Source: a virus. From it: a stretch of DNA of 28,082 nt. The notes beneath the pieces were generated by a model. It was given only the letters and a program-made list of their open reading frames with translations. It made no database searches and was not told the origin of the DNA. Positions within the stretch are counted from its first letter, which is position 1. Each line of letters starts with the position of its first letter. A program made the translations under genes and the position numbers. Below are positions 1,880 to 27,313 of this stretch, one piece after another. The stretch is taken from IMG/VR virus record IMGVR_UViG_3300025009_000325, positions 1 through 28,082 of that record; one strand, written 5' to 3'.

Positions 1880-2028
1880 CCCCGCGCCTCTTTCATGATC
1901 TTTTCCATCAACCCAGGATTTCTGCGCGCGAAAAGGAAAACATCATTGCACGCTTTGCAGGGCATAGGCTTTCCGCAGAAGCGGCACTTTTTAATCCGGA
2001 GTCTTCGAAGGAAGGATCGCAGGCCCAT
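1876..2028 (-). CDS. 50-residue zinc-ribbon-like protein
   Basis: The ATG at 2028 has AAAGGA eight bases upstream, and the frame ends at TGA (1878-1876). The product has a basic N-terminus (RSFLRRLRIKK), then CRFCGKPMPCKAC with two CxxC pairs, then a helical, basic C-terminal half. This looks like a compact zinc ribbon that could bind nucleic acid. It overlaps the 3' end of the SleB-type hydrolase gene by 38 bases in another frame, which is common for small phage genes. The CxxCGKP core is shared with the 28-residue product at 753-839. Function unknown. Confidence 0.65.
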   Translation of the reverse strand: MGLRSFLRRLRIKKCRFCGKPMPCKACNDVFLFARRNPGLMEKIMKEARG

Positions 2029-2461
2029 CGTGTTTTCCTTTGTCCAGGTTGTGGAAGTTGATTCGCCCTATCTTACGCACGAAGCTCGCAGGCGTGGCCC
2101 ATGAGGGGGGCTTTATGCTTTGATCCCAGTAGTGGTCGGCGCCCGGGGCTGGGTGCTCTATCATTCCCGTGAGCGCCTGGATGGCGATCTCGATGCACTC
2201 GAGCCACACAGGATCGCCGTCCTTGGGCCAAGTGGTGAGCTGCGCGTCACGTGGGTCGGTGAGCGAGGAAAAGGCCCACTTTTTAAACAGCACGTCGGAG
2301 ACGGTCTTTGCTTTAAAGTACGGCCGGCCGAGGCGGTTGAGTACCGTCATGGCCACAGCTTCTTTGCCGGGCCGGGGCTCACCGCGAGCTTCACGCCAAA
2401 TGCACAGTGCAAGAAACACGGTGTCAGACATCGTTTGGTACGGGCGATTTCGGTCTACCAT
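1991..2461 (-). CDS. SleB-type cell wall hydrolase (endolysin candidate)
   Basis: The 156-residue product from the ATG at 2461 matches the Hydrolase_2 (SleB/CwlJ) fold. Residues 16-28 read FLALCIWREARGE, with the conserved catalytic-type Glu24 in the REARGE motif, followed by a VAMTVLNRL helix and a later GADHYW segment at 107-112. This family cleaves the glycan strands of peptidoglycan, and in phages it commonly serves as the endolysin. A longer frame exists up to 2665 but overlaps the preceding gene fully, while the ATG at 2461 has AAGGAG about ten bases upstream and overlaps the previous stop by only seven bases. No export signal is present, so access to the wall would need a holin. It is close to the usual single-domain length. 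Confidence 0.88.
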   Translation of the reverse strand: MVDRNRPYQTMSDTVFLALCIWREARGEPRPGKEAVAMTVLNRLGRPYFKAKTVSDVLFKKWAFSSLTDPRDAQLTTWPKDGDPVWLECIEIAIQALTGMIEHPAPGADHYWDQSIKPPSWATPASFVRKIGRINFHNLDKGKHDGPAILPSKTPD

Positions 2462-2985
2462 GTCACAGTTTCTCCTTGCCAGGTGGCTGACGCACCTTGC
2501 CACGTACCCCATCCGTGCCCGCCGGCATAGTTGTAAGACAAACTGTAGACTCCAATGCCGGCGGAAAAAAAGAACACCTCTTCGGTCGCCGATTCCGGGA
2601 TGACGCCGTAGTACCCGGCGGTGGTCAGCATGGAAAATGGCGCGGAGGTCGGCGCGATGAGCCACAGGTATGTGAACTCCGGCAGCTTTCCCACGGACAA
2701 GTCGTAATTCCAGCGGATGACCGGCCGGCGCGAGCCGATCGTTTTATTGGTGCTGCCGATCTCCCATTCGTCGGTGTCAAAGGCATGCGAGTAGACATCG
2801 ACGATTTTTGCGCCGGTGATGCTTCGGATCATCGTCAGGGCCGGCAGCGTGGGGTGGAGCAGTTGCTCATTGCTCAACGCATCCACGCGGCGCTGGCTGC
2901 CAAGCAATGTGGCGAAGGAGATTGTCGCGCCCGCTGTGCCGTAGGCTATTTCAAAATCGGGTTGGCTTGAAGTGATGAGGGACAT
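2455..2985 (-). CDS. Unknown virion or tail-associated protein
   Basis: This 176-residue protein starts at the ATG directly after the TAG stop of the upstream membrane-protein gene. It appears mainly beta-structured, rich in aromatic residues and Ser/Thr, and ends in a short tryptophan repeat (WGTWQGASATWQGETVTW). A hydrophobic stretch near the middle (FTYLWLIAPTSAPF) is too interrupted for a clear membrane span. There is no signal peptide. I do not recognise the family. It lies between the exported fibre-like cassette and the endolysin, so a baseplate, fibre-associated or host-lysis accessory role are all possible. The repeat of W-x-x-x-x-x-W spacing at the C-terminus suggests a carbohydrate- or protein-binding edge strand, which is only inference. 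Confidence 0.7.
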   Translation of the reverse strand: MSLITSSQPDFEIAYGTAGATISFATLLGSQRRVDALSNEQLLHPTLPALTMIRSITGAKIVDVYSHAFDTDEWEIGSTNKTIGSRRPVIRWNYDLSVGKLPEFTYLWLIAPTSAPFSMLTTAGYYGVIPESATEEVFFFSAGIGVYSLSYNYAGGHGWGTWQGASATWQGETVTW

Positions 2986-3279
2986 CTATTTTCCCATGTA
3001 GGTTTTGATGTACTCAATGGCCTGATCTTTAACGCAGCCAATGATGTAGGCTTTGCCAGTTATCCAGATGCCCCAGGCAGCCACCGCCCCACCGACCGCG
3101 CCGCTGATCGCCTGGAGCGTCGCGTTCTTTGCACGAAAGGCTTTGAGCTTGGCGTCGTATTGGCGTTGCATGATCATCATGTTCCACAAGATTAGCCCGA
3201 GGACTTTCTCCTGTGGATTGCCGCGGACGAACTCTTCGGCCTCTTCGCGGGTGTTGATCTCTTCTGTCAGTCCGGGCAT
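2986..3279 (-). CDS. Small one-pass membrane protein (possible holin)
   Basis: The 97-residue protein has an acidic helical N-terminus (EEINTREEAEEF), a helix rich in Lys/Arg (RQYDAKLKAFRAKNATLQ), and one hydrophobic segment at about residues 57-82 (ISGAVGGAVAAWGIWITG), followed by a short charged tail. The ATG at 3279 has AAAGGCGG seven bases upstream. Small membrane proteins of this size just before an endolysin gene are often holins, but this one has a single clear span and a long N-terminal cytoplasmic part, which is not a standard holin class. Its gene is separated from the endolysin gene by one gene of unknown function. A membrane anchor for a neighbouring exported fibre is an alternative. 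Confidence 0.72.
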   Translation of the reverse strand: MPGLTEEINTREEAEEFVRGNPQEKVLGLILWNMMIMQRQYDAKLKAFRAKNATLQAISGAVGGAVAAWGIWITGKAYIIGCVKDQAIEYIKTYMGK

Positions 3280-3306
3280 AGAACCGCCTTTCTCTAATGT
3301 GCGTAA

Positions 3307-4539
3307 TTATCCAAAAATTCTACCACCCAAACCATGTGTTTCTGGAACGTCGTTAGGCCCCGGTGTCGGAGTTGGCGTAGGGGTAGGCGTAGGCGTCGGT
3401 GAAGGTGTTGGCGTCGGAGTTGGCGTAGGCGTAGGGTCCGGGGCTGTTTCGCCAATCGTAACAGAAAGCCCGGTGGCGTTGTATGCTCCATCTTCATCTA
3501 CGATATACAGCCAAGCCGTTTGCCCGGTAGTCCAACCTGCCGTATTTGCCAATATGGTCACGCTGCCATCTGCCCACGCTGTAGCGGGCTGAACTTCCCT
3601 GCGAGTACAGGCCGCCCAAGTAGAGGCGTTTCCTAATTCGCCCCGCGCCCTGCTTCCGATCTGGACGTAGACATCATCGACAAAAACTTGCTCGTCACCA
3701 TCGCGTCCGTCTACCGTGTTGCCCACATAATTTTGGATCGCAAAGGACTGCATCCGTTGGGGGAGCCCGTTGTAAACTGCTAAATTGCCGTTGTAGTTCA
3801 GGACATTAGTGATTACGCCCCCGGTTTTGTGCATGTCATAGACGAATGTCCCATCCTTAACCGTTGATGAGCTATTGCCCTCTGCGTAGATTTCAACCCG
3901 CGACCATGTGTTAAATCCTGGGTCTTCGGCTGCACTCAAATACTCATAGCCCACCTTATCTTCGATGGTTGAATACCAATCCGATTGTGCTACCCTGGTG
4001 GTCATGCAAAGGACATAATCTTGGCCGTTGTTCCAGTGGCTTGCCATAAAGACCGTATAGGTGTCATCCATGTTATTGGTGCGATCCATGATGCGCCACA
4101 TTTTGTGCTGTCCGAGCGTGTCGCTAAGGTCAGCGTATATCCAGAAAGTGGCGTAGACTTTCGCTGCGACACCGCCGAGGCCGTACCAATATCCAGAACC
4201 GTAACAGGACGCAGTATAAGAAGATCGTATTGATTTGCTGCCGCTGTGGGCGCGGACATCAGAATACCTCGGAGCGCGGCGGCTGGTAGAATCCGGGTCA
4301 GCACCCCAACCGGAAGCAACAAAAGCATTGCCGGATGTCCCGGCTTCGATGTTCGCCCCAAGCCATGAGTAAGCCCCTGCGTCAGCGTTGGTGCCAAAAG
4401 AACTCCCGCTCACGGTGATGGACGCGCCGTTATCGTAGGTTCCAGAAAAACTTGTCGGCGCAGGGGCAGCAAGCGCCACCCCCGACCACAGGAGCAGGAT
4501 TATTCCTGATAATTTACAGTGATTGAAACCGCTGAACAT
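3307..4539 (-). CDS. Secreted jelly-roll (LamG-like) protein with Pro-Thr linker
   Basis: The 410-residue protein begins with a Sec signal peptide (IILLLWSGVALA, cleavage likely after Ala24). An excellent ribosome binding site (GGAGGT, five bases before ATG 4539) fixes the start. Residues 29-50 resemble the first strands of an IPT/TIG domain (SITVSGSSFG). Residues 90-300 look like a lectin or polysaccharide-lyase jelly roll with aspartates near its end (EQVFVDDVYVQIG). A small beta module follows (WADGSVTILANTAGWTTGQTAWLYIVDEDG). Residues 364-395 are an almost pure Pro-Thr linker, leaving a 15-residue tail ending GLGGRIFG. It overlaps the upstream lipoprotein gene by 40 bases. The architecture suggests an exported glycan-binding protein; an enzyme activity is not demonstrable from the motifs seen. 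Confidence 0.82.
   Translation of the reverse strand: MFSGFNHCKLSGIILLLWSGVALAAPAPTSFSGTYDNGASITVSGSSFGTNADAGAYSWLGANIEAGTSGNAFVASGWGADPDSTSRRAPRYSDVRAHSGSKSIRSSYTASCYGSGYWYGLGGVAAKVYATFWIYADLSDTLGQHKMWRIMDRTNNMDDTYTVFMASHWNNGQDYVLCMTTRVAQSDWYSTIEDKVGYEYLSAAEDPGFNTWSRVEIYAEGNSSSTVKDGTFVYDMHKTGGVITNVLNYNGNLAVYNGLPQRMQSFAIQNYVGNTVDGRDGDEQVFVDDVYVQIGSRARGELGNASTWAACTRREVQPATAWADGSVTILANTAGWTTGQTAWLYIVDEDGAYNATGLSVTIGETAPDPTPTPTPTPTPSPTPTPTPTPTPTPGPNDVPETHGLGGRIFG
3355..3450 (-). repeat. Hexanucleotide repeat encoding the (Pro-Thr)n linker
   Basis: The plus strand shows imperfect tandem GGNGTN units (GGCGTA, GGCGTC, GGTGTT), read on the minus strand as Pro-Thr dipeptides with one Pro-Ser and one Pro-Gly variant. 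The units are degenerate at third positions, so the array has been diversified rather than recently copied. Such tracts change length easily by slippage in multiples of six bases, which keeps the frame. The complementary frame encodes a GVGVGV shadow that is not a gene. Confidence 0.9.
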
Positions 4540-6140
4540 TGCACCTCCTCGCCCGCCGCCATCCCGCGAGACTCAATTGCAAACTGTTGCATGGGATAAC
4601 TCCCGCCGCCCTCAACTTCTGCTTCGGTCCAAGCGATGCCGGTGGCCGGGTTTGTTGACCAAACTGCGGTCTGGTCAGTAAATGATTCTGTCAAAGTTTT
4701 ATCCGAGCCTACGTAATTCGTTCCGTTGACTCGCAGATTCCCACGAATGGATGAATCCGCAACGGTTTCTCGGCAGCGCAAATTTACGGTTACGTTGTCA
4801 ATCGAAGACGAAGAGATTGAAAAAGCTGTGAAAGTAAAATAGTGATAACCGGCAGTGTCGGCCTTATACGCATAGTCGGTATCGTTTGGTGAATCTGGAG
4901 TCTCATCTGTGTCACCGTAAACCGTGGTAGCCGATGCCGTCCAGCTACCGCCGGCCCCGGTACCTGTCGGAACTCTGGTCTGAGATGCAGCGCCCCCGCT
5001 TTGAACCGAATTGTTTGTGATCGCACCGGACGTAATGCTGGCAAGGTCAACCCCACCAGAGGTTGATTCAATTCCGTTCGTCGGTTGGGTGTAGTCAAGG
5101 TCGCAAGTGTCTCCTGAATTGACTGTCGTCCCGAGTGTGTAGACCGCATCTGTTCCCGGCAAGCCGCTGTCATACGTGGCCGTGATATCGTTTCCGGCAG
5201 TGGCACAGTCAACGTCAAACCCGCCGTTTCCACCCGCTCCGACCGAAAGCGAAGCAGATCCAGTAAGGGTGAGCGTTACGCCATCGGTATCAATCACGCG
5301 AGAGGTCAGTGTTGGTGTAGCAGGCGAAAGCGAATCCGTAAGGCTTACCGTCATCCACTTTCCAGCCGTCGCGCTATAAATGGCAAGGGTAGTCCCGTCA
5401 ACCGCGATACCAGAAACGTGGGCCGAATCACTGTTTGCCGGGTAGGTGTCGAAAGCAAACCCCCCGAAAGCGGTCCAGGCAGAACCACTCCAGTAATGAA
5501 GGGTGTCCACGCCGCCATTGGTGTAACAGCGGATTTCAGTGTCTTCTGCCGGGGCAGGCCAGCTTTCCACCGCAAGGGTGTTGCAGGCAAATTGTACCGC
5601 GCATAGCCCTGTCGTTGGGTCGCATAATCCGTTGTGAAGGTTGGGGTCGTCAGCGTGGTCGTCGGTGTATGTCTTTGCAGCTTTTGCGCTCGGGAGCGAG
5701 TCGTCTGAAGCGCTGGTCGCGGCCAGATCGGAGTCGATTGAAAGGGCCGCAACCGCTCCACCAGTAGCCCTACCAACGACGGTCTGCTCCCCCACCGTCA
5801 GCCTCGCCGGGGTGTTGTCCGAAGTGGCATAGACGATTGAGTAGGCATCGAAAAGGGATTCGAGCAGATAGCCGGCGTGGGGGTCTGCCGCGCCTTCGTG
5901 CGTAGTGAGATCACCAGATATTTCATCTATGGCGTCTTGTGCGGTAAGAGAAGACACCGTTCCCGCCGGTACGTTGGTTACGTTTCTTGCGTACATCTTG
6001 TACGTGTCATCGAAGTGGTCGTCTGCATCGGCGTCCAGTTCAACACCGGTTTGTTCGAACATCACCGGCTTAGCGCAGCCAACAGCCAGCAGCAGAACTA
6101 CTAACCAAATCCAATGATGTCTACTTTTTCCTCTTGCCAT
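4500..6140 (-). CDS. Fibre-like lipoprotein with SwmB-like and C-terminal beta modules
   Basis: This 546-residue protein starts at ATG 6140, with AAGGA nine bases upstream, and opens with a lipoprotein signal (WIWLVVLLLAVGC, Cys22, Ala at +2). The next 140 residues hold phage fibre-stalk motifs: PAGTVSSLTAQDAIDEI (59-73), ADPHAGYLLES (85-95) and LPSAKAAKTYTDDH (149-162). Residues 172-206 contain five cysteines. Residues 275-380 resemble the SwmB repeat of bacterial surface proteins (NSGDTCDLDY then ITNNS). The last 160 residues form a beta-sandwich-like module ending in SAVSITVNYQE. It overlaps both neighbours by 40 bases. The join of a lipid anchor to a fibre stalk suggests display on the host outer membrane. 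A virion fibre with a fortuitous lipobox is the alternative. Confidence 0.82.
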   Translation of the reverse strand: MARGKSRHHWIWLVVLLLAVGCAKPVMFEQTGVELDADADDHFDDTYKMYARNVTNVPAGTVSSLTAQDAIDEISGDLTTHEGAADPHAGYLLESLFDAYSIVYATSDNTPARLTVGEQTVVGRATGGAVAALSIDSDLAATSASDDSLPSAKAAKTYTDDHADDPNLHNGLCDPTTGLCAVQFACNTLAVESWPAPAEDTEIRCYTNGGVDTLHYWSGSAWTAFGGFAFDTYPANSDSAHVSGIAVDGTTLAIYSATAGKWMTVSLTDSLSPATPTLTSRVIDTDGVTLTLTGSASLSVGAGGNGGFDVDCATAGNDITATYDSGLPGTDAVYTLGTTVNSGDTCDLDYTQPTNGIESTSGGVDLASITSGAITNNSVQSGGAASQTRVPTGTGAGGSWTASATTVYGDTDETPDSPNDTDYAYKADTAGYHYFTFTAFSISSSSIDNVTVNLRCRETVADSSIRGNLRVNGTNYVGSDKTLTESFTDQTAVWSTNPATGIAWTEAEVEGGGSYPMQQFAIESRGMAAGEEVQCSAVSITVNYQE

Positions 6141-6562
6141 ATTTCAGTTCCTTTAATCAGGTCGGCGTACCACAAGCCTTGTTGTGAAAAGCAAATGTTG
6201 TAGGCGTGGATCTGTGTATCTTTTTGGCGGACTATGATGCGGAAGATGGACGGAGCATGAGTTGGCCCGTCCATCTTGGCAAAGCGGATGTTGGCGAAAG
6301 TCACCAAAGCGCCAGCAAAGTCTTCGCAGTCGTGGCGATGCGTTTTATACAGGCTCGGTACAGCTATGGGGTGAACGCCGAACTCCATAGCAAGGCGCTG
6401 GTTAGCCCATACTACTGTTTCAGCAAACTCGTCCTTAGTAATGTGCTGAAACGCTGCGTCAAGCAGATTCTCCGTTGCGGAGATTTTCTTTCCCCACGGC
6501 ATACGAGAATCGAATTGCTTTAGCTGCTCTCTGATTTGCGTTGATGTTATGATTTTTTGCAC
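6101..6562 (-). CDS. Transglutaminase-like cysteine hydrolase or transferase
   Basis: The 153-residue protein carries HRHDCEDFAGALVTF at residues 76-90, placing a Cys79 at the start of a helix as in transglutaminase-like and bacterial transglutaminase-like cysteine proteinase folds. His119 (IHAYN) and Asp134 (WYADL) follow at suitable spacing for a Cys-His-Asp triad, with a beta hairpin between them. No signal peptide is visible, unlike the proteins on both sides. The annotated start is a GTG at 6562 without a convincing ribosome binding site; the ATG at residue 21 is possible and would keep the catalytic part. It could cross-link, process or deamidate a neighbouring exported protein, or act on wall peptides. 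Assignment rests on motif order only. Confidence 0.62.
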   Translation of the reverse strand: MQKIITSTQIREQLKQFDSRMPWGKKISATENLLDAAFQHITKDEFAETVVWANQRLAMEFGVHPIAVPSLYKTHRHDCEDFAGALVTFANIRFAKMDGPTHAPSIFRIIVRQKDTQIHAYNICFSQQGLWYADLIKGTEIWQEEKVDIIGFG

Positions 6563-6590
6563 AGATGCGTGATCCCTGTCGTTGCGGCCC

Positions 6591-7859
6591 CTAAAATCTC
6601 CCGGTGCAAACCCCGGTCATCGTCGGCGGCAATATCGGCGGCAATATCGGCTGCGTCCCGTAATAAAGCGTGCCCATATCAGCGCTGTCGTCGCCCGCAT
6701 TTTCTCCGGGTGATCCTGATGCGAGTTGCCAATTATTCCAGTTCGCGATATTTAACGGAGTGCCAGAGTATACCGCTGCGCCTGTAACTGTATTTGTTGG
6801 TGTAACAACTAGCGATATTGTGCTGCTATTACTATTTAAGTTATAATCTATTGTTGATCCAGACCCAACACCTTCTTCTTGGTCGCTTGCAGCAGTTTGG
6901 AGCGTTGAATTGTCAAATATGTTATTGTTGAGTGTCCAGTTTGAGTTTGGAGAAACGGCGCTTTTAGAGCCAATACTAACGTCCATGTTATAGAACGTAT
7001 TATGGCTCATGTTCATACCACTTACGCCGCCGATCTGTATGCACTGTGGCTCATCGCACTCTTGAAAGACGTTACCGGTTATCGACATCGCGCCGGATGT
7101 ACCATCGTAAATACCTATGTGGACTGCGTTGTTATAGAAGTAACTATTTATAATTGCGTTATTAGGCCCGCCGCCGCCGTCATCTTGATACGCGTCAACG
7201 TGGTTAGCGCATCCTGTTTGATAAAAATTTGAAAAAGTATTACCTGGCCCTACAGTTATCCCACCACCGGCCTGAACATTTATGCCGTCTGAACATTCAT
7301 TGCCACCGGTAAAAGTGTTGTTGGAGATTGTAAAATTATTATCATCGCCACTACTATTTATACCAATCATTCCAGATGCTGTACTTGGAGCTACGTTATT
7401 GATTATATTCCCATCGATCAAAACACTGAAAGAGTAGCCACTGCCGCAATCGGGGGCCACGAAGTACATTTTTGCATTTATCGTAGAATTTGTTATCTGG
7501 AGATTATTTGAGCACCCGCCTGGCTGGTAGCTTCCACTCAGAATTACATTGTCTATTTTTATGTATTCTGCGCCCCAAAACGTGAATCCATTTAATGGTG
7601 CGTCGGGGTTAATATCAAGATCGACAGTGGCACCTTTTGTATTGACCGATTTTATCGTAACATAACTTGCGAATTGTTCGGTGATCTGGCCTGTTACAGT
7701 ATAACTTCCGTCATTTAAGCAAATCTCGTCACCGGCAGAAGCGGCACTGATGGCTGTATTTATATTTGCGCCGGAGTTGAGCGTGGTTGTGCAGACAGCT
7801 CCCGACGCAGAGGGCAGAAAAAAAGCACAGACCACGGCTATGAGTATTTTAGTCCGCAT
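6591..7859 (-). CDS. Secreted right-handed parallel beta-helix protein
   Basis: The ATG at 7859 is preferred over an upstream start at 7934 because it places a Sec signal (MRTKILIAVVCAFFLPSASG) at the N-terminus and overlaps the previous gene by only 11 bases. The 422-residue product begins with a cap found in secreted beta-helix proteins (INTAISAASAGDEICLNDGSY), with paired cysteines. Repeated coils of the N-N-x-F type follow (ISNNTF, INSYFYNN, ITGNVF, MSHNTF, LNNNIF), as in pectate-lyase-like folds. This fold is used by polysaccharide lyases and hydrolases and by phage tailspikes. No catalytic residues can be assigned. The gene is visibly richer in A+T than its neighbours. A C-terminal proline-rich end (ILPPILPPTM) is encoded by a small 12-base tandem repeat. 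Confidence 0.8.
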   Translation of the reverse strand: MRTKILIAVVCAFFLPSASGAVCTTTLNSGANINTAISAASAGDEICLNDGSYTVTGQITEQFASYVTIKSVNTKGATVDLDINPDAPLNGFTFWGAEYIKIDNVILSGSYQPGGCSNNLQITNSTINAKMYFVAPDCGSGYSFSVLIDGNIINNVAPSTASGMIGINSSGDDNNFTISNNTFTGGNECSDGINVQAGGGITVGPGNTFSNFYQTGCANHVDAYQDDGGGGPNNAIINSYFYNNAVHIGIYDGTSGAMSITGNVFQECDEPQCIQIGGVSGMNMSHNTFYNMDVSIGSKSAVSPNSNWTLNNNIFDNSTLQTAASDQEEGVGSGSTIDYNLNSNSSTISLVVTPTNTVTGAAVYSGTPLNIANWNNWQLASGSPGENAGDDSADMGTLYYGTQPILPPILPPTMTGVCTGRF

Positions 7860-8637
7860 CGCCACCAACCCAATTATCGTGGTATTGAGCGTTGCCACCG
7901 GAATAAATCCCAAGATATTTACCGCTGTCGGCAAAATCCTGGCCTACTTCATTAGTGCTACCATCGCCATCCCCGTTAACATTCCCAGAAGAGTTGGTCG
8001 TGGTACACGTAGTCGCGCTTTCTCCGGTAACATACACTCCATAGTCACACGTCCCCCAGGACGCATACGCCGGAGGGGCTGACGAGCTCCAATGCCAAAC
8101 CTTCCATTTTGTGCTTAGGCCGGTGCCTGTGACCTCTAGCCCGAGTGAATCTCCCTCTGCAATACTGACAGAAAAAGAGGCTATGTCTGAACACGACGCT
8201 CCTGTGCAATATCTTACAGCTATGGCTGATCCGTTATTGTTCCGCAAGCAATACGCTACTGTTGTAGCGTTGTCTGATGCAACTTGCCGCGCATAGACTC
8301 CGGTATAGGAAGTAACGCTGGATGGCCTGTATTCGACGGCAACATATTGAGAGATAGTACTGGTCTGCGCATCGTAAATATAGACGGTGGATGGCTGGAT
8401 AATTAACTCACCACCGCTAATGGAGGAGTCTGTTCCCGTCAGTTTTACCCACGCCCCGGACGAAACGGAAGACAGCTCGCCGTTGTCGTAGGGAAAAGCG
8501 TCAGAGAAATCTTGACCTGGCGTGGCTGCGCCGGAAACGACCGCCCCGCCACCAACCATGATTGGCCCCACCCAAGCAAAAGCGATAGAATAGGCAAGAA
8601 GCAAAGCACAGGCTATTAAGAATCCATACTTTTTCAT
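7849..8637 (-). CDS. Secreted LamG-like (concanavalin-fold) protein
   Basis: The ATG at 8637 overlaps the TAA of the upstream fibre-lipoprotein gene (TAATG) and has AGGAG eight bases before it, so it is preferred over a start seven codons upstream. The 262-residue product begins with MKKYGFLIACALLLAYSIAFA, a Sec signal with cleavage likely after the AFA. The rest is a lectin-like beta sandwich that starts FSDAFPYDNGELSS and ends GIYSGGNAQYHDNWVGGD, resembling the DDF.GGD end of LamG-like domains in phage and secreted proteins. Four cysteines in the second half may pair in the periplasm. Glycan binding is inferred. A lipobox-like LIAC exists at residues 7-10 but lies too early in the signal to be convincing. 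Confidence 0.78.
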   Translation of the reverse strand: MKKYGFLIACALLLAYSIAFAWVGPIMVGGGAVVSGAATPGQDFSDAFPYDNGELSSVSSGAWVKLTGTDSSISGGELIIQPSTVYIYDAQTSTISQYVAVEYRPSSVTSYTGVYARQVASDNATTVAYCLRNNNGSAIAVRYCTGASCSDIASFSVSIAEGDSLGLEVTGTGLSTKWKVWHWSSSAPPAYASWGTCDYGVYVTGESATTCTTTNSSGNVNGDGDGSTNEVGQDFADSGKYLGIYSGGNAQYHDNWVGGDAD

Positions 8638-11600
8638 TATGGTGTCTCCTGTACCCATGTTCCGCTCCCGCCCATCGTGACCCAGTTCGTAACGTCGATG
8701 GCAACCAAGCAGATAAAGTCGCCGTTTACACCGTCGCCAGCCACACCAGGGGAGTTGATAGCCTCTCCAGCAGAAGCAGCGGCTCCATAAAGGAGTATTA
8801 CGTCAGAGCCGTCAACGTCTATCTGGACGCCACCAGTACCGCCGCCATTGTCATAAAAACAAGCGCTCATGCCAGCAGCAGCAGCAGGGAGGGTGTAAAC
8901 TGTATCGCTCGTCGCCGTAGCGTGGTCAGCAATAAACATAGTCCCGTACATCTGCGCGGCGGTCGGAGATTCTGTGCCATCGGTGGTCGTTACAAGGTTT
9001 ATGGCTCCAAGGATTGAGCCGGTACTGACAAGGCCGATTGACCCCATGTTCAGCGCGGTCACGCCTGTGCTGGAAGAAACTCCAACTTCGTTTGCCGTAT
9101 CGTCAAAGTTGAGTGTCAAATCCTCATCGGCGCCAGCGCTAAGACCAAGAAAAGTGATAGCGCCGTCTCCGTCGTCTGTGATCTTTACGCCAGTAGCCCC
9201 AAGCGTTACATCGTCAATCGTTGGGTTCTGGTTGAAAACGATTAGTGGTGTGCCTGTACTACCAGTTTCGTCGGTTACTATTGTTGCAAGTTCGGAAGAT
9301 GTATCTATATCCGTGGTAGCCATACCGCCAGCCCCGCCGTCGTCGTCTACCTCTTTCCACGTGTCCGTGGCCCGACACACATAAAGCGACCCGTCCGTGT
9401 CGGCGTCAGTATCCCAATAGGTGTCGCCAACGGTACACGTACCTGGTAGCGATGTGGCATTTGGTGTACGAAGGGTAGTAGATATTAAGACCGTAAACGT
9501 ACCAGCAGCAGCAGTCGATCCGCCTATAATGCTATTGTTTACCGTCCCGCCAGAAATCGTCAGCGCGTCGGCTACTTCGTTGTCGGCCCAAGGGTTATCT
9601 GTGTTTACGAGGTTTTCAGTTATTGTTCCGTCTGCGATGTCGGTAAGCGTTGCTTCAGCGGCTTGGTATCCATCCAGGTCAACAAAGGACGTGGCCTGCA
9701 CATAGGGATCAGCCGCCGTCCCGGTTCCACTTTCTGCCGCGTTCGTCCACGCCAGCACCATGTTCGCAGAAGATGCCCGAGCGTTCGGAAACTGCCCACG
9801 ATAAGCGCCGTCCCCTGTAATCGAGGCGGGGCCACGGAAACCAGCCGCGTGTGTGTCGGTGGAGTTTGCTTCGTAAAGGCCCAGGTCGGAAGCCTCCCCG
9901 GAAGTCTTAGACGTTACAAATGATGTCCCTGTGATGGTCGTCCCGGTGATAGCCGCTGGAGTTGTGCCGCCGATAGCGCCAGGGGCATCAAATGGCAACC
10001 GAGCCGCCTCTATAGTACCAGAAGAAAAGAACGAGGTGGCGCTGTCTCCTGTCGCTGCTACCGATGCCGTTCCGGTTACGTTGCCGGTCACGCCACCGTC
10101 AGCGTAAATCATGCCATCGACTTCAAGCATCCCGGTCACATAGCTGTCTTGCCCGTCCTGCGCCTGTCCCGGTGAGCCTCCACCAACTTTTAGATTTCCG
10201 GTCAGGATTGCCACGCCGTCAGCAGCGGGGGTCGTGATCGTAAGAAAGCCTGAATCGATTTTGTTAAAGACTGCCGTTTCGTTCGTGGCGTCTTGAAAGG
10301 TGATCGTCGGGGAGTCTCCGGTTCCATCGTCCATAAGGATGTTGCCGGTCATCGTGCCGCCAGTAGTCGGAAGACCGCCGCCAGCAGCCACCGAATCGAC
10401 ATAAGCTTTGCGAGCAAACTGGTTGTCGGTTGTCGGGTCGGTAGCAGGGCCAACGGGAATCCCGGTCAGCGTGAGGACGTTCGTTGATGGATTAAAGCTG
10501 ATACCTGCGTCCGTTTCCGTGGCTTGGCTTCCGGTCGCGCCGTCCACAAGGATAGGGTAGAAAGTGGCGTTGTCGTCTGCCGTGTCAACCGGGGTTACGT
10601 TGTTGGGGGCCGAACTACCTAAGGACGCCGGGTCGGTGTATCCCATTGTCCCGTCAGCGTCTACATTCAGAAGGTAATCCGCTCCACCAGGGGCAGCGGT
10701 AGGGGTCGTCCATCCTATCGCGGCACCCGCAACGCCCGAAGTGATCGTAAAAATGTTATTGTTCGTGGCGTTTTTCATTTGGATCGCGCCGGTGTTCGCA
10801 CTACCGGTTCCGACCGTGAGGCCGTTCGCGCCGGTGAAATTGCCAGTTGCGAACGTGACATTGGCAGTATTAAGAAGGTTCTGGTTCGTAGCACCCATCA
10901 ATCGCCAGCCGTCCGTACCATCACCGTCATCCGGCAATATCGTTGTTGGTGAGGACTCTGTAAGGGCAGCTCCGGTTTCATCATATTTGAAGAAATACTG
11001 CACGACATCAGCGCCACTGATTGTCGTTACCGTAGCTATGTCGCCTTCTGCTAAACCAGCCGAAGCGATAGCGTCAAGAGCGCCAGCACCGCCACCGATT
11101 AGAACCGTGCGAAAATAAGGGATATTTACACCACTATCTAATGCCGCCTGCTTCTCGGTATCCAGTTCGTTCAAAGCGTTCTGGACCGTTACGGCTGCGA
11201 TGCTACCCGCAGGGGTATTGGCTACCTCTGCGGCGGTCTGGTCGTCAGTGCCAGCACCTGCGGCAAGAGTGGCTAAGGACACACCAGCCGGATTGTCTCC
11301 GTCCGTAAATGTCATGGTGTTTGTTTCTTCTGAGATAGAGCCCGTAGCACCGATAAGTACGGCCCCTTCAACGCGAATACCGCGCGCCCCGTCACTGCTC
11401 AAACCAGGAGGCGGCGGAATCGCCATCGGCGCCGCCGTCTCTTCCAGATTATACTTTAACCCGACGCAGCCGCTGAGCATCAGCATTGCTAAGATAACGG
11501 GCACACCTTTTCCAAAGCGGGTGAGCAGTATCTGCGCAATGCGCTTTACGGCGCCAATGTAGGGCACCCATTTGTCGGGCAGGTAGCCGGCAATGCCGTC

Positions 11601-11675
11601 AGTTGCAAGCAGCATGAGTAGTACCCCGAGGAGAGTCTCCCAGTGAGCAACAATGAAGTTTCCGATTTCAGTCAT
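8637..11675 (-). CDS. Large fibre-like lipoprotein with membrane-associated N-terminus
   Basis: The 1012-residue protein has two hydrophobic N-terminal segments: residues 14-30 (TLLGVLLMLLATDGIAG) and 57-69, the latter ending in a lipobox LSGC with Cys70 and Val at +2. A fibre-like body follows: PAGSIAAVTVQNALNELD (155-172), then long Gly/Ala/Thr/Asp-rich stretches typical of trimeric phage fibre shafts, with collagen-free beta repeats (GGTMTGNILMDDG, PSTNVLTLTG). The C-terminal 120 residues (ADHATATSDTVYTLP and later GDFICLVAIDVTNWVTMGG) look like a receptor-binding tip domain common in phage fibres. The lipobox sits far from the first Met. An internal GTG at residue 58 or nearby could start a normal lipoprotein signal, or the first span may act as an anchor. 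Fibre homology is firm in kind; location is inferred. Confidence 0.82.
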   Translation of the reverse strand: MTEIGNFIVAHWETLLGVLLMLLATDGIAGYLPDKWVPYIGAVKRIAQILLTRFGKGVPVILAMLMLSGCVGLKYNLEETAAPMAIPPPPGLSSDGARGIRVEGAVLIGATGSISEETNTMTFTDGDNPAGVSLATLAAGAGTDDQTAAEVANTPAGSIAAVTVQNALNELDTEKQAALDSGVNIPYFRTVLIGGGAGALDAIASAGLAEGDIATVTTISGADVVQYFFKYDETGAALTESSPTTILPDDGDGTDGWRLMGATNQNLLNTANVTFATGNFTGANGLTVGTGSANTGAIQMKNATNNNIFTITSGVAGAAIGWTTPTAAPGGADYLLNVDADGTMGYTDPASLGSSAPNNVTPVDTADDNATFYPILVDGATGSQATETDAGISFNPSTNVLTLTGIPVGPATDPTTDNQFARKAYVDSVAAGGGLPTTGGTMTGNILMDDGTGDSPTITFQDATNETAVFNKIDSGFLTITTPAADGVAILTGNLKVGGGSPGQAQDGQDSYVTGMLEVDGMIYADGGVTGNVTGTASVAATGDSATSFFSSGTIEAARLPFDAPGAIGGTTPAAITGTTITGTSFVTSKTSGEASDLGLYEANSTDTHAAGFRGPASITGDGAYRGQFPNARASSANMVLAWTNAAESGTGTAADPYVQATSFVDLDGYQAAEATLTDIADGTITENLVNTDNPWADNEVADALTISGGTVNNSIIGGSTAAAGTFTVLISTTLRTPNATSLPGTCTVGDTYWDTDADTDGSLYVCRATDTWKEVDDDGGAGGMATTDIDTSSELATIVTDETGSTGTPLIVFNQNPTIDDVTLGATGVKITDDGDGAITFLGLSAGADEDLTLNFDDTANEVGVSSSTGVTALNMGSIGLVSTGSILGAINLVTTTDGTESPTAAQMYGTMFIADHATATSDTVYTLPAAAAGMSACFYDNGGGTGGVQIDVDGSDVILLYGAAASAGEAINSPGVAGDGVNGDFICLVAIDVTNWVTMGGSGTWVQETP

Positions 11676-12148: not shown

Positions 12149-15100
12149 TCATTCCGAGCTGCGCGGTCCTTTTTTCTTCTTGACAATGTTTTGCTCGGTG
12201 AGCATATCCCTGTCTTGCATTTCCCCGAGTAAAGTTCTGGTAGCTATCGTGTGCGTCCGGCTCTTTACCTTTTCGAGCAGACGGTATTTTTCCTCGTCGC
12301 TCCACTCAGGCCAAGCCTTTCTGGAGATCAGATCTTCAAACTCAGCCTTTAACTGAGTGCCGTAGTCGATGGCGTAGCTTCGGTACATGTCCTCGGGTAT
12401 CTGGTACTCGTTGCTGTGCGCTGACACCGTTTCTTCCGGCAGCGCGGGGTAGAAACCAAGTTTTTCCAGCTCCAACTCCACGGGGTCATTGGTTTCTTTC
12501 GCCCATTTGAAGGGCAGCCATTGGCGAAACACGCCGCCGGGGATAACGCTGTCCTTTCCATACACATCCAGTTGTGCCGGCAGCGTACCAGACACGCCCG
12601 GGATGGTACGTGCAAGAGCCTTTATCCACTCATTGCCCTCGCGGGGTTTAGCTTCTCCCTCTGTCAGCACTTCATACGCACGGCTTGTGGAACTGAGGAA
12701 ACCGGAGTACGGAATCCACCCCATAGCAAATCTTGGGATTGCTGATTGTCTACGGTCATACCTATCCAGAACATTTTGTAGCCCGGCAAAGTAAGCGCCG
12801 TCGAGAAGGTTGTCCTTCATCATCAACGCAAAATCCATGAACGCCTCGGTTGCCTTCTTCTCATCTGGAGCGTTGATGATCTTATCATAAAAAGTTGTAG
12901 CCGCCGCGATCCCGGTGTTGAAGGGCTCCATCCGGCGAAACTCATGCCATGTGTACCCGTCCTTTTCGTTGCCTCGCCTCAAGGACCAAGGCTTTTTACC
13001 CTGCCTGTACCAAGCATCGCGCTCGGCTTTGTTCTCCGGAAGCGGGCCGGTGATTATGCCCTGCTGCGCGGCGTTGAGTACAAAGTAGGCGATAATGGCG
13101 CCCTCTATCTGCTTTGCGATGATTTCGGCTGGAACGTATTTTTTATGCGCCGCCCAATCTTTACCCAGCGCTTTGACAACGCCCGGCTCCATACCTTCGA
13201 TGCCCCTCTTCATGCCCCAAGACGCAGCTTCTTTTACCAACCCAAGCCCGGGGGTCATCTCAACGCCGCGCTTTAAAAGATTGCTGATCGTATTGACGAA
13301 TGGCATAATCGTCATCTTCAACAATGTCCCGACCACAGGGACTTCCCGTGCTTTTGCAAGCAGGTTGGTAAAGGGGTCAGGCGGATCAGTGAAAGTTGAG
13401 TAGCGGGAGAACCGCTTGGCAGATTCCAGATCCGCGCCGCTTAAATTCTCCGCAAAGTTCTTTTCGAACTGTGCGCGCTGATCGCCTTTGAGCCCTCTCT
13501 GATTTGCCGCCCTGCGCGCCAGAGCGTTCACTTGAGCGTCAAAAGCGATCGAGTTGGCCCACACATCCATAGCTTGCAGTCCACGAGTGGCTACGGTCAG
13601 ATAAGGAGCAAGCGTGCGCAAAATTTTATGTGGGCTCCTGGCGAACGCCGACGCTGAAGCGCCCATGTCGTTTGTCCATTTGGTTTCGTAAGAATCGACA
13701 CGCCCTCTTTTCATCATCTCTGCGGCAGCGCCGCGGCCTTTTACAAACCCAGTTCCCATGCCAGCCATCATTGGCACAATTTCATCAAGATACCGCTGTC
13801 GCTGCGCGCCGGTGAAGGTAGACCAAATCTTGTCTATGGGAGCAGTGAGCGCCCGGTGGGGGAGCTGCCATGTAATCCACGACGTATTGCCCGCCACATT
13901 CACAAGGTGGGTCGGCGGGCCGGACAGGACATTGTTATACCAAAACTCAACAAGGTAGTCAGCGAACTTCGGGTCGGGCATCTCCTTTTCGAAACGGTCC
14001 AGTATGTCTTTTGTGAGAGTGCCTTCTTCGAGTCTACGCAGAACTCTTTGCGCGTCCTCTATCTGCCGCGGGCTCAACTTTTTAAACCTATTCAGGATGT
14101 CCGCGATGCGGTCGCCTGAGACATATTTTTTCTGGATCTCAAGCGCACGGCCGACCTCGCTCTTTGCCCCGCTCGTGATGTCTAAAATACCTTCCCGAAA
14201 ACCGGTGAACTTTTGATTGAACTCGTCTATGCCAATCTTACCTTTACGGAAATCATCGAGCACCCCACCGAACATCTTCATAGCGGTGGCGTTGATCTCA
14301 CCAACAGCATCCATCTTGGCGGTGAGATTTCCACCCGACATCTTCTGTAAGTCCTGGAGGGCCGACTCCATCCGATTCGGGGAGATGAGAATCTTGTCTG
14401 ACCGTGCTTCGGTCTGCTTATGCGTAATCGTCTGTTTTTCTTTGGCGATTGCAAGCTCAAGATCCTTGGCGCTCTGCGGGATATTCTGCTTATCGAGGTT
14501 CACCGATCCGGCGTATTTACCGTCACGCGGCGCCGGCGGGTTCTCTGTTTTGTCCAGAATCTGCTGGCCATAAACCGCCGCAGCGTGGTCAACGACACCG
14601 CCATAATTCTGCGTAATGGCGTCGATCACCTGCCGATCCACACCCATGCTGGTGAGGTACTCGCCCACGTCTTTACCGACACGGCCGGCGTTGCGCTTTA
14701 CCATCAAGATGTCTTTTGCCAGGCGATCGTAGGCCGCGCGGCGCTCCGGCGTCATGGTCTTTAAGTCGTAGCCCAGCGAGCCGGTTTTGCCGACAGCAGT
14801 GTTCACGTCACGTAGCATATCCTTTACAGACCGCATGCCTGTGTTGGGCTCGGGCGCTGCTGCTTTGGCGGGTTCGACGGGCTTTGTCACACGGTCATAC
14901 GCTTCGCTCATCATCTGCTCGGGGGTGCGCTTATCACGCTGTGATGGATGCTCCCTGCGGGCGGCCTCTTGTGCCTCACGATAGAGCTGCGCCTTGTAAG
15001 CGTTGTTCGTGCGGTCTTCGCTAAAATCTTTCGCGGCTTTATACTCAGCTTCTTTTGCCCGAGCAGCATCTTCCAAACGCTTCAGCTCTGCAACTTCACC

Positions 15101-16663
15101 GGCCGACGCTTTCTCTCCGAATGCCACCGCTTCGTTGGTGGTCTTAAATTCCGGAATCGGACGATTCGGGGCTTCTTTCGGATATTCAACGGATGAAATG
15201 TTCGGCCCGGGTTTATCGCCCACCAGCGCCGCCTGCCTTGCGATCTCAGCGTCTCGGGCGTTTCTGGCCTCAATGGCGAGAACGTCCGGATTTTTCGCTG
15301 CTTCAAGTTCGGCGTCCTGACGCTCCAATTCGGTCAACCGGCCCCGCAGTCCTTCTCGGCCCACAGGCGATTGAACCTCGTCCACCATCCGCGCGTAGCG
15401 TGCTTCTTCTTTTTCACCATAAACGCTCTCGGCATTCTCAAAAGTCTCGGCCGCCTGCTGCGCGCGTTTCGTTTCGGGGCGCTCATCATAAGCAAGCGTC
15501 TCCTCTACACGGGAGAGCCGATCGAGTGGGCGCTGTGGGGTGTTGGCACGCTCTTGCGCGATGCGCGTTAAGATCTCATCTTTGGCGAATGTATTGTCGA
15601 GCTTCACATTCTCCGCGGGGCTCATTTTTTCCGGAACGCCGGACTTGGGCGCTGCTTTGCCCATCACCTCTTTGGCGCCGTGAACAGATTTAGCGGCGAC
15701 GACCAACTCGGAGATGTCGCCCGCAAAACCAAACAGACCTTTGATCTCCTTTTGCTTTTCTTCAGGCAGGCTCTTTACATAATCTGAATCAGCGAGCGAT
15801 TCGAATATGGATTTTGCCGCCGTGCCTGGCGCCATCAGAGCTTCGCCAAGCACCTTGCTCTCTTTGTAGTAGGGGCGATAGCTCGGCACATTCTGCGCCG
15901 TCCACTTGCTGTTTTCCTCAAAGCCTTTCGTTGCCGCCTGGTGCAGCTTTTCTGGATCGATCTCGCCGCCCAGGATAGCCTGATCCATCACCTCTTTGGC
16001 AAGACTCTGCGCATAGCCGAGCGCACCGGTGAAAAATTGCGGGACGCCGGCGGTGATAAATTCAGTCACACCCTCGGCCCAGGCCGCGGGATTGGCGGTA
16101 AATCTGCCGACATCATCCCAAGTGGAGGTGAACTTCTCCGTCGCCCGCTTGGTCATGTCCTTGACATCGATCGCGGAAATAGCTTTCGGGATTTCTGTAG
16201 CCGCTTTTATCGGGTCAATAATCGGCACCGGGCTATACTTATTCGCCGTCTCAACAAGACCCTGCGCTTTTTTCACAGCGTCGGATTCGTACCATGCTTT
16301 CTCCGGCGGAGGCGCTACGCGGTCAAACGCAGCACCCCACGGATCGGGCTGTTCAGTTTCCGGCGCTGTTCGTTTTTCCTGAACAGGCTCGCCGGTCTTT
16401 GTGTTCACCCCATCAAGCACCATGCGGGGGTGGCCTTCAGTTTTAAACTGAGAGGGCCAGTGACCGGTATCGTCCGGCGCAGCGCCGGCAGCGAACGCAG
16501 CACGATAGTCATAGAAGTGTTGGGGATCGTCTGGATCGGGGTTAAGCCCCTGTTTTGCCGCCTGCCCCGCATACCACTTCTTGAACTCTTCCTCATCAGG
16601 AGGAGGGGGCGTCTGCGCCCGCGAAGAAACCCGATCGTATGCACTTCCCCACGCGTCAACCAT
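12149..16663 (-). CDS. Giant internal virion (DNA-ejection) protein, polyvalent-type
   Basis: The 1504-residue protein starts right after the TAA of the upstream gene (TAAATG). Residues 50-92 hold a segment common in phage injection and polyvalent proteins (FYDYRAAFAAGAAPDDTGHWPS and later HPRMVLDGVNTKTG). A short motif, W/M-x-x-A-Y/F-D-R-V, occurs at residues 5-12, 109-115 and about 586-592. Residues 360-600 are charged coiled coil. After about residue 900 comes a part reminiscent of large polyvalent-protein domains (FWYNNVLSGPPTHLVN), with several amphipathic or hydrophobic segments (AIIAYFVLNAAQQG). Proteins of this size beside a nozzle gene normally leave the virion with the DNA and form a channel across the envelope. 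I found no RNA polymerase motifs like those of the N4 virion polymerase and no lytic transglycosylase motif. Confidence 0.82.
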   Translation of the reverse strand: MVDAWGSAYDRVSSRAQTPPPPDEEEFKKWYAGQAAKQGLNPDPDDPQHFYDYRAAFAAGAAPDDTGHWPSQFKTEGHPRMVLDGVNTKTGEPVQEKRTAPETEQPDPWGAAFDRVAPPPEKAWYESDAVKKAQGLVETANKYSPVPIIDPIKAATEIPKAISAIDVKDMTKRATEKFTSTWDDVGRFTANPAAWAEGVTEFITAGVPQFFTGALGYAQSLAKEVMDQAILGGEIDPEKLHQAATKGFEENSKWTAQNVPSYRPYYKESKVLGEALMAPGTAAKSIFESLADSDYVKSLPEEKQKEIKGLFGFAGDISELVVAAKSVHGAKEVMGKAAPKSGVPEKMSPAENVKLDNTFAKDEILTRIAQERANTPQRPLDRLSRVEETLAYDERPETKRAQQAAETFENAESVYGEKEEARYARMVDEVQSPVGREGLRGRLTELERQDAELEAAKNPDVLAIEARNARDAEIARQAALVGDKPGPNISSVEYPKEAPNRPIPEFKTTNEAVAFGEKASAGEVAELKRLEDAARAKEAEYKAAKDFSEDRTNNAYKAQLYREAQEAARREHPSQRDKRTPEQMMSEAYDRVTKPVEPAKAAAPEPNTGMRSVKDMLRDVNTAVGKTGSLGYDLKTMTPERRAAYDRLAKDILMVKRNAGRVGKDVGEYLTSMGVDRQVIDAITQNYGGVVDHAAAVYGQQILDKTENPPAPRDGKYAGSVNLDKQNIPQSAKDLELAIAKEKQTITHKQTEARSDKILISPNRMESALQDLQKMSGGNLTAKMDAVGEINATAMKMFGGVLDDFRKGKIGIDEFNQKFTGFREGILDITSGAKSEVGRALEIQKKYVSGDRIADILNRFKKLSPRQIEDAQRVLRRLEEGTLTKDILDRFEKEMPDPKFADYLVEFWYNNVLSGPPTHLVNVAGNTSWITWQLPHRALTAPIDKIWSTFTGAQRQRYLDEIVPMMAGMGTGFVKGRGAAAEMMKRGRVDSYETKWTNDMGASASAFARSPHKILRTLAPYLTVATRGLQAMDVWANSIAFDAQVNALARRAANQRGLKGDQRAQFEKNFAENLSGADLESAKRFSRYSTFTDPPDPFTNLLAKAREVPVVGTLLKMTIMPFVNTISNLLKRGVEMTPGLGLVKEAASWGMKRGIEGMEPGVVKALGKDWAAHKKYVPAEIIAKQIEGAIIAYFVLNAAQQGIITGPLPENKAERDAWYRQGKKPWSLRRGNEKDGYTWHEFRRMEPFNTGIAAATTFYDKIINAPDEKKATEAFMDFALMMKDNLLDGAYFAGLQNVLDRYDRRQSAIPRFAMGWIPYSGFLSSTSRAYEVLTEGEAKPREGNEWIKALARTIPGVSGTLPAQLDVYGKDSVIPGGVFRQWLPFKWAKETNDPVELELEKLGFYPALPEETVSAHSNEYQIPEDMYRSYAIDYGTQLKAEFEDLISRKAWPEWSDEEKYRLLEKVKSRTHTIATRTLLGEMQDRDMLTEQNIVKKKKGPRSSE

Positions 16664-22640: not shown

Positions 22641-23005
22641 ACGCCGCCTATCATTTTCGCAGCTTCGTGCTGGATGCGCTGCCGGTCCTCCAGAAGTTGC
22701 ACCAGATAAGCAACTGCCGGATCTGGTTTCGGACCATGCTCGGTTGTCATGTTGTTCCGGAAAGACTCCACTGCTTTTTGATTCCCCTCGAGGAGCCCGA
22801 GCGTTGTGAGCGCAAACTCAAGCTGCCAGCGGTCGATGCAGCGCCCAATTTTATCTTTAGGTTTCAGCGGCTCGCCCCGGGGCGTGACCAGAAGTTCTAC
22901 CCATGCAGGGCAGCCGGATTCCCCATCCCACTCTTTTTCGCAGCAGCCTTTTTTAAATGCGGCCAGGCCGCGGATACAGGGGGGCTTAGTCTTTGACACA
23001 GGCAA
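22637..23005 (-). CDS. Cys-rich protein of unknown function
   Basis: The 122-residue product contains C10, C21, C22, C32 and C53, with a CCEKEW segment and WVELLV next to a Pro-rich turn. The C-terminal half is helical (DPAVAYLVQLLEDRQRIQHEAAK). The first start is TTG at 23005, but AGGAG is only about four bases away; the in-frame GTG at 22999 is ten bases from it and may be the true start. It overlaps the collar-fibre gene upstream by 20 bases and the nozzle gene downstream by ATGA. Cysteines could bind zinc. I do not recognise the family; a fibre chaperone or tail accessory is possible from position only. Confidence 0.68.
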   Translation of the reverse strand: MPVSKTKPPCIRGLAAFKKGCCEKEWDGESGCPAWVELLVTPRGEPLKPKDKIGRCIDRWQLEFALTTLGLLEGNQKAVESFRNNMTTEHGPKPDPAVAYLVQLLEDRQRIQHEAAKMIGGV

Positions 23006-26374: not shown

Positions 26375-27313
26375 TTAGGTGTCTTTGGTCACGCGCAGGT
26401 TGTGAATCCACGCATCGTTCAGGATGCGGCCAGCCCACACGGCTTTCCAGCCGGCGGTGGCGTAACGATTCAAGGGAGAACCGGCGGTGTCGAAACCCTT
26501 CATGACGGTCTTGATGCCTTCCAGGGACACGTCACCAAAAGCATCAGCACCAAAGATTGGAAGGTAGTACTGAGCCGTGGCATCGGAAGACTTGTGGGCA
26601 TTGGTCGTCCATTCCCACCGGGTGTTGCCCAGAGCGCCCCATTCCCACCCGGTCGTGCCGGTCTGGGAGGCGTAAGCAGCAATCGACAGAAAGCCCGTGC
26701 AGCCTTCAAGATCCATCAGCAATTCCTGATGGATGATGCCGCGGAAGGCGGGGCGAAGCGGGCTGGACCCGACGCCGGTGCCGGAGCCAACCAGCTTGGT
26801 AACAAACTTGGCGTTGCCGGACAAAAGCTCCAGCACCACGTTGTCCACATCGCCGCGGGTGATCTCGGTGGGGGTGTTGCCGTTATCCCCACCGGCCGCG
26901 TTGGTCGCGCTGGCAGAGGCCGACAGGATATCACGCATCAATGTTTCGAAAGTGATGTCGGCCTGGTAGCCATTGCGTTCGGCGGCCTGGGTGAGCACCG
27001 GATCTTGATTGGTCATATCGACCTCTTCCGTTATGTGCTCCAGACCGCCGTACCAGGAGATCTTGGCGGTCAAAGACTCCTGCGTAACCTTGTGAGCCGC
27101 AGGATCGGCGCCCTCGGACAGCGGGGTCGTGGCGGCAGCCGGCATGGGATACCGGTGCCACTTGTAGGTGTTGCCGGACTTGGACGGCATGGAAGCATGC
27201 TGGGCGTGCTGCCGGTAAACCATGTTCTCTTTGGCAGCTTCCAGCAGGACGCGATTGTAGAAAATTTCTACCGCGGGAGCGACATCAGCGGTAGTGGTTA
27301 CGTTATCGGGCAT
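26375..27313 (-). CDS. Major capsid protein, N4-gp56 family
   Basis: The 312-residue protein matches the N4-gp56 capsid pattern in order: an N-terminal arm with VEIFYNRVLLEAAKENMVY, a basic/aromatic GNTYKWHRYPMP strand at residues 47-58, then TTPLSEGADP, a long E-loop-like LTAKISWYGGLEHITEEVDM, DPVLTQAAERNGYQADITFE and a later helix-beta region with GFLSIAAYASQTGTTGWEWG. These proteins adopt the HK97 capsid fold and form the icosahedral shell. The start ATG 27313 has AAGGAG nine bases upstream, and 17 bases separate it from the scaffold-like gene. Length is in the expected range. A separate decoration gene probably follows. This is the most secure function in the window. Confidence 0.93.
   Translation of the reverse strand: MPDNVTTTADVAPAVEIFYNRVLLEAAKENMVYRQHAQHASMPSKSGNTYKWHRYPMPAAATTPLSEGADPAAHKVTQESLTAKISWYGGLEHITEEVDMTNQDPVLTQAAERNGYQADITFETLMRDILSASASATNAAGGDNGNTPTEITRGDVDNVVLELLSGNAKFVTKLVGSGTGVGSSPLRPAFRGIIHQELLMDLEGCTGFLSIAAYASQTGTTGWEWGALGNTRWEWTTNAHKSSDATAQYYLPIFGADAFGDVSLEGIKTVMKGFDTAGSPLNRYATAGWKAVWAGRILNDAWIHNLRVTKDT

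Follow-up and report, generated by a model that had tools for sequence, protein, structure and literature searches.

The synthesis and assembly of tailed-phage fibres are taken to be cytoplasmic. The locus analysed here raises the question of whether a phage may send a whole set of fibre-, lectin- and beta-helix-like proteins through the export machinery of its host, and what such proteins would do outside the cytoplasm. The window, i.e. the whole stretch of DNA that was analysed, is an IMG/VR record of 28,082 bp and represents the late region of an uncultivated podovirus-like phage. The cassette is situated in the late module, past the ejection protein and ahead of the lysis genes, as is the case for podovirus fibre or spike genes (Table 1). 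All open reading frames listed in an earlier note on this DNA are present where it placed them.

Table 1. Features of the window; a slash marks the predicted cleavage site
Feature	Position	Strand	Remarks
Lipoprotein, 131 aa	358..753	(-)	MKKLLTTLLVIIFLTG/C, lipobox, Cys17
Cell wall hydrolase, lysis module downstream	1991..2548	(-)	PF07486
Sec-signal protein, 410 aa	3307..4539	(-)	signal 4468-4539, MFSGFNHCKLSGIILLLWSGVALA/AP, SPase I
Thr-Pro repeat linker before short Gly-rich C-terminal tail	3361..3438	(-)	common to counterparts in G001, G002, G003
Fibre-like lipoprotein, 546 aa	4500..6140	(-)	MARGKSRHHWIWLVVLLLAVG/C, lipobox AVG/C, Cys22 (codon 6075-6077)
Protein without signal, 153 aa	6101..6562	(-)	conserved
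Sec-signal protein, 422 aa	6591..7859	(-)	MRTKILIAVVCAFFLPSASG/A, SPase I
Sec-signal protein, 262 aa	7849..8637	(-)	signal 8575-8637, MKKYGFLIACALLLAYSIAFA/WV, SPase I
Fibre-like lipoprotein, 1012 aa	8637..11675	(-)	N-terminal TM helix, then lipobox LSGC, Cys70 (codon 11466-11468)
Conserved N-terminal module, 88 codons	11412..11675	(-)	TM helix + basic loop + lipobox + LEET
Conserved gene, 139 aa	11679..12098	(-)	upstream edge of cassette in G000, G002, G003, G004
Ejection / internal virion protein	12149..16663	(-)	phrog_6651; phage context of cassette
Virion structural protein	20838-22640		
Signal-free fibre-like protein, 288 aa	22986..23852	(-)	G002 homologue with added lipoprotein module
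Major capsid protein	26375..27313	(-)	phrog_1357

Cassette genes and predicted signals

Of the six genes that make up 3307-11675, five are predicted by a rule-based caller to carry an export signal of either the Sec (SPase I) or the lipoprotein (SPase II) type, and most SPase I members carry canonical SPase I sites. The remaining gene, 6101-6562, lies mid-cassette and was missing from the list of the earlier note; neither it nor 2986-3279 gives a call. The note had all five genes begin with a signal. The five signals are indeed called, but that of 8637-11675 is internal: an ATG with a Shine-Dalgarno sequence upstream (AAGAGGTAGAAA-ATG) opens a transmembrane helix at approximately residues 13-31, and the lipobox follows at residues 67-70, an arrangement also found in G002. 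A lipobox is called in 358-753 as well, in agreement with its description as a sixth, predicted exported lipoprotein. The genes overlap by 1 to 40 bp or are separated by gaps of 27-28 bp, as befits the tight operon that had been proposed.

A lipoprotein without Asp at the +2 position goes to the outer membrane under the enterobacterial Lol rule. No Asp is found at +2 after the Cys in the window lipoproteins, thus they are expected in the outer membrane if this rule, which may not be that of the host, applies. The 4500-6140 sequence continues after cleavage as CAKPVMFEQTG. By eye, a post-Cys motif LE[QED]T is present in several lipoproteins and absent from others.

The cassette genes of the window show no fibre family match in PHROG, Pfam or NCBIfam, and 8637-11675 and 3307-4539 yield no match among 50,697 phage records. 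Predicted structures are poor, with a mean pLDDT of 38.8 for the 153 aa protein and 42.3 for the 410 aa protein. Relatives of individual genes are more informative as to type. Fibre relatives of 8637-11675 are L002 and L003, and relatives of 3307-4539 are found in G002 and G003. The counterparts of 6591-7859 in G001 and G010 match Pfam Beta_helix above cut-off, whereas the window copy does not; an exported gene of the G010 cassette that is close in size to 7849-8637 matches Laminin_G_3 below cut-off. The 6101-6562 sequence has 87% identity to G002 and 25% to G001, where the gene is upstream of the cassette; it displays a DCEDFA...IHAYN pattern that is cysteine-peptidase-like by eye only. The small lipoprotein 358-753 is 51% identical to a G002 lipoprotein and has a weak match to the Cor family phrog_1119 (E = 9.5e-4) over residues 1-38 only, mainly the signal.

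Two other candidate markers were set aside. Cysteine content, as a marker of an oxidising location, is 10.0 per 1000 residues in the cassette vs. 5.5 in other late genes, but it is not diagnostic because the signal-free spike of G010 reaches 13.4 per 1000 residues. A dual start, suggested by an internal Met just past some cleavage sites, was seen by eye and is not general.

In the window, 1066-1695 encodes a 209 aa protein which, judged by eye from a SHAELI...QAICSEVV pattern, may be an amidase of the permuted papain-like type. It is conserved in G002, G003 and G004 and has no above-cut-off Pfam match. No integrase is seen in the window fragment. Scans of genome contigs for a host gave no convincing relative; the sole match is short and lies in the Flavobacteriales MAG contig L044.

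Signal caller and controls

The caller is our own and not SignalP; it combines n-region charge, an uncharged hydrophobic stretch and an SPase I or lipobox site. The T7 late region is free of calls. N4 has only three, in open reading frames located at its annotated spanin, endolysin and holin genes. For an E. coli region the caller recovers TolB and CpoB, does not list Pal, and calls some inner-membrane proteins. Thus the caller is imperfect yet useful for contrast. Signals at annotated starts are found in 22 of 26 cassette genes vs. 5 of 255 other open reading frames of the same five genomes (Fisher p = 4e-24, with cassette membership defined by position and therefore partly subjective). When N-termini are shuffled with composition kept, a signal is called in 4.8%. 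Chance signals are therefore unlikely, as had been argued from the window.

The cassette in other phages

The search of related genomes that the earlier note suggested finds the cassette at the same site in G001-G004, G005 and G010. Relatives were reached through the fibre gene (L002, on contig G001, and L003, in G002) and through the capsid protein (G003 and G004). G002, G003 and G004 have the capsid gene in common with the window. G001, G005 and G010 have a different, P22-like backbone; the window's capsid gene is absent from G001, which carries a P22-like portal and capsid, and the G005 capsid protein is 96% identical to that of G001. One fibre gene is common to both backbones (82% over 453 aa).

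These six genomes show three to seven fibre-, lectin- or beta-helix-like genes at the site, nearly all signal-bearing. G002 has the gene order and signal types of the window, i.e. a fibre with transmembrane helix and lipobox, a Sec gene, a Sec beta-helix-like gene, a 152 aa protein, a lipobox gene and a Sec gene, and an additional Sec fn3-like gene ends its cassette. Signal-bearing genes at the site number four in G003, three in G004 and six in G001, and in G005 three of them adjoin the ejection gene. The G010 cassette consists of Sec fibre-like, lipoprotein, Laminin_G-like and Beta_helix genes.

Separate fibre candidates without signals are found near the tail nozzle: 22986-23852 in the window, a 541 aa protein in G001 and a 670 aa protein in G010, the last a Beta_helix spike. 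Since several phages have such a candidate, the fibres of the virion may be encoded outside the exported set. No signal-free fibre is recognised in G002. The capsid relatives of G001, G006-G008, carry a 460 aa fibre candidate without a signal. No comparable cassette is present in the stretches examined of L039-L043, Desulfovibrio phage ProddE (L028) and a Salinibacter phage (L045).

Several other features of these genomes were observed. In L064 (6522-8636, 11287-12129) and L065 (8094-9008, 11276-12073), distant phages with P22-like capsids, Sec signals stand at the starts of other structural-module genes, some next to the portal and some directly behind the capsid gene. A tyrosine integrase (PF00589) is found at G003:C1:48668-49300 (L023), with a homologue at G004:C1:33742-34383, so that both phages may be temperate. 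The capsid match in G002 (G002:C1:17494-19131, L004/L005) is split into two pieces approximately 670 bp apart with a 181 aa open reading frame between them, as if the gene were interrupted by an intron or insertion. The 953 aa terminase large subunit of G004 (G004:C1:29992-32853, L025) contains an intein-like insertion (KCLKQGERVPLADG...TFVEHN). By eye, acetyltransferase-like and radical-SAM-like genes lie among the structural genes of G001 (L002 2913-4375). Two IMG samples each contain relatives of both backbones, L013/L057 in 3300009285 and G002/L058 in 3300003154, hinting at a common host.

Conservation and exchange of N-terminal modules

Between relatives, bodies of the cassette proteins are approximately 17-33% identical and the signals persist. 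When 8637-11675 and 4500-6140 are compared with G002, the 50 N-terminal residues show 70-80% identity and the remainder approximately 31-39%; in 8637-11675 the first 50 residues are 80% identical and the body is largely swapped. Estimates of dN/dS against G002 are approximately 0.13-0.18 for signal-containing N-terminal segments of 8637-11675 and 0.13 for 4500-6140, whose h-region alone (13 codons) is too short for an estimate. By the sequence comparison with G002, purifying selection acts on the lipoprotein modules of both genes. In 7849-8637 and 6591-7859 the signals lack sequence conservation and yet remain signal-like.

Gain and loss of signals can be read directly from homologous genes. 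A 272 aa protein of G002 consists of a lipoprotein module (MKRFSIALFAAFLLFG/CAHQGLEQTG) followed by a region 48% identical to window 22986-23852; the module is found upstream of this region in G002 only, and the window homologue is without it. The large fibre has an SPase I signal in G003 and a lipobox in G002. In L065 and L080 the N-terminal domain is a homologue of the one in the signal-free G010 spike (E = 2e-5 for L065) and has a signal ahead of it.

Possible function of the exported set

The sequence evidence gives good support to predicted export of the cassette proteins into the host envelope. The same arrangement in unrelated phages suggests that these viruses send receptor-binding-type proteins to the envelope of a cell that they are killing. 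The earlier proposal of an envelope destination stands in so far as the signals look genuine, are not due to chance and recur across unrelated backbones; surface exposure, receptor masking, superinfection exclusion and adhesion are putative. That the proteins also reside in lysogens is weakly favoured by the integrase of G003 and its homologue in G004, but the cassette lies in the late module.

T5 Llp, a receptor-blocking outer-membrane lipoprotein, is encoded by a gene that adjoins the gene of the receptor-binding protein. According to PMC9586334, such superinfection-exclusion proteins keep phages from adsorbing to cells already infected and to fragments of lysed ones. The cassette resembles Llp and Cor in encoding phage lipoproteins, predicted here to be in the outer membrane, next to receptor-binding genes, with the phage's own receptor as the expected target. 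Podovirus fibres and tailspikes, such as T7 gp17 and those of the P22 type, share with it the position after the ejection gene, a modular N-terminus, swapped distal bodies and, in counterparts of window genes, beta-helix domains; they differ in that nearly every cassette member has a signal or lipobox. Exported bacterial adhesins and lipoproteins likewise combine a signal or lipobox with lectin-like and beta-helix domains and Thr-Pro linkers, but the cassette lies among the late genes of a phage, flanked by those for ejection and lysis. No description of exported fibre cassettes was found in the open-licence literature, as judged by titles and the openings of abstracts.

Our best guess, held tentatively, is that these are late, envelope-located proteins that bind the phage's own receptors and prevent wasteful adsorption. 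The late-operon cassette of fibre-like, lectin-like and beta-helix proteins would be exported by the host Sec machinery during infection. The two large lipoproteins would be lipidated and reach the outer membrane, and the SPase I proteins would fill the periplasm and be freed at lysis. Their most likely role would be to bind receptors of the phage itself, glycan or protein, both on the infected cell and on its debris, perhaps with some trimming, thereby keeping progeny and sibling phages from adsorbing to either. The cassette would then be a multi-protein counterpart of the Llp/Cor lipoproteins. What the sequences show are the signals, the conservation of the cassette and the gain and loss of signals as modules; export itself, the final location and the receptor blocking are what we infer in this scheme. 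An envelope role is favoured because G010 and G001 have a separate signal-free spike or fibre candidate in addition to an exported set of binding-type proteins, and by the analogy to Llp. The analogy is incomplete, however. Llp and Cor are single small proteins and Llp is expressed early, whereas the cassette encodes several large late proteins, some with SPase I signals; the receptor-blocking candidates are 250-1400 aa, and only 358-753 would match the small known lipoproteins in size. In addition, the shaft-like repeats of the cassette proteins look virion-built, surface glycans could be reached from the periplasmic face only via surface flipping, and G002 is without a recognised signal-free fibre.

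The main rival to receptor blocking, somewhat unlikely in our estimate, is that the cassette encodes the virion's real fibres or spikes, which would be exported, folded in the periplasm, in some cases tethered to the outer membrane, and joined to virions only at lysis. The cassette occupies the tail fibre site of podoviruses such as T7, and its long fibre bodies, in which the N-terminal module is conserved and the distal part swapped, follow the usual pattern of virion fibres. Because of these fibre-like bodies at a fibre locus and the signal-plus-spike-domain genes of L065 and L080, this reading is almost as attractive as receptor blocking. The lipobox module on the G002 homologue of the window's signal-free fibre also fits, and leaves room for the lipid-anchored fibre of the earlier note. 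A lipid anchor would, however, keep fibres on the membrane, G010 and G001 have separate signal-free spike or fibre candidates, and we know of no tailed phage that takes up exported fibres. It is unlikely that the following broader form holds: that receptor-binding virion fibres routed via the Sec/lipoprotein pathway, folded outside the cytoplasm and mounted at lysis are widespread in environmental short-tailed phages, with export status a swappable N-terminal module.

It is quite improbable that the set consists of exported surface or matrix effectors (depolymerases, adhesins or surface-modifying proteins) for biofilm escape or lysogen conversion. Beta-helix, Laminin_G-like and fn3 domains, Thr-Pro linkers and the integrase genes of G003 and G004 are consistent with such effectors, but catalytic families give no above-cut-off match (that of G003 to Pectate_lyase_4 falls short), the position is in the late module and the window fragment shows no integrase. 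The extra transmembrane helix before the lipobox of 8637-11675 and its G002 homologue could mean that the hydrophobic N-termini are unprocessed membrane or virion anchors that resemble signals; since genes that have diverged repeatedly show canonical cleavage sites and lipoboxes, and orthologous fibres take the SPase II form in G002 and the SPase I form in G003, this is very improbable. The slightest chance of all is given to superinfection exclusion by 358-753 only, with the fibre signals serving something unrelated: its Cor-family match speaks for this but lies mainly in the signal, and the gene, near the lysis genes, may encode a lysis protein.

Thus two or more phage backbones that are unrelated to each other carry a conserved fibre-like cassette with working-looking export signals. 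Labels such as 'tail fibre' or 'hypothetical' in annotation would hide exported genes of this kind. If export is true, the cassette would represent either a new, multi-protein protection of progeny from re-adsorption or a step of phage assembly outside the cytoplasm.
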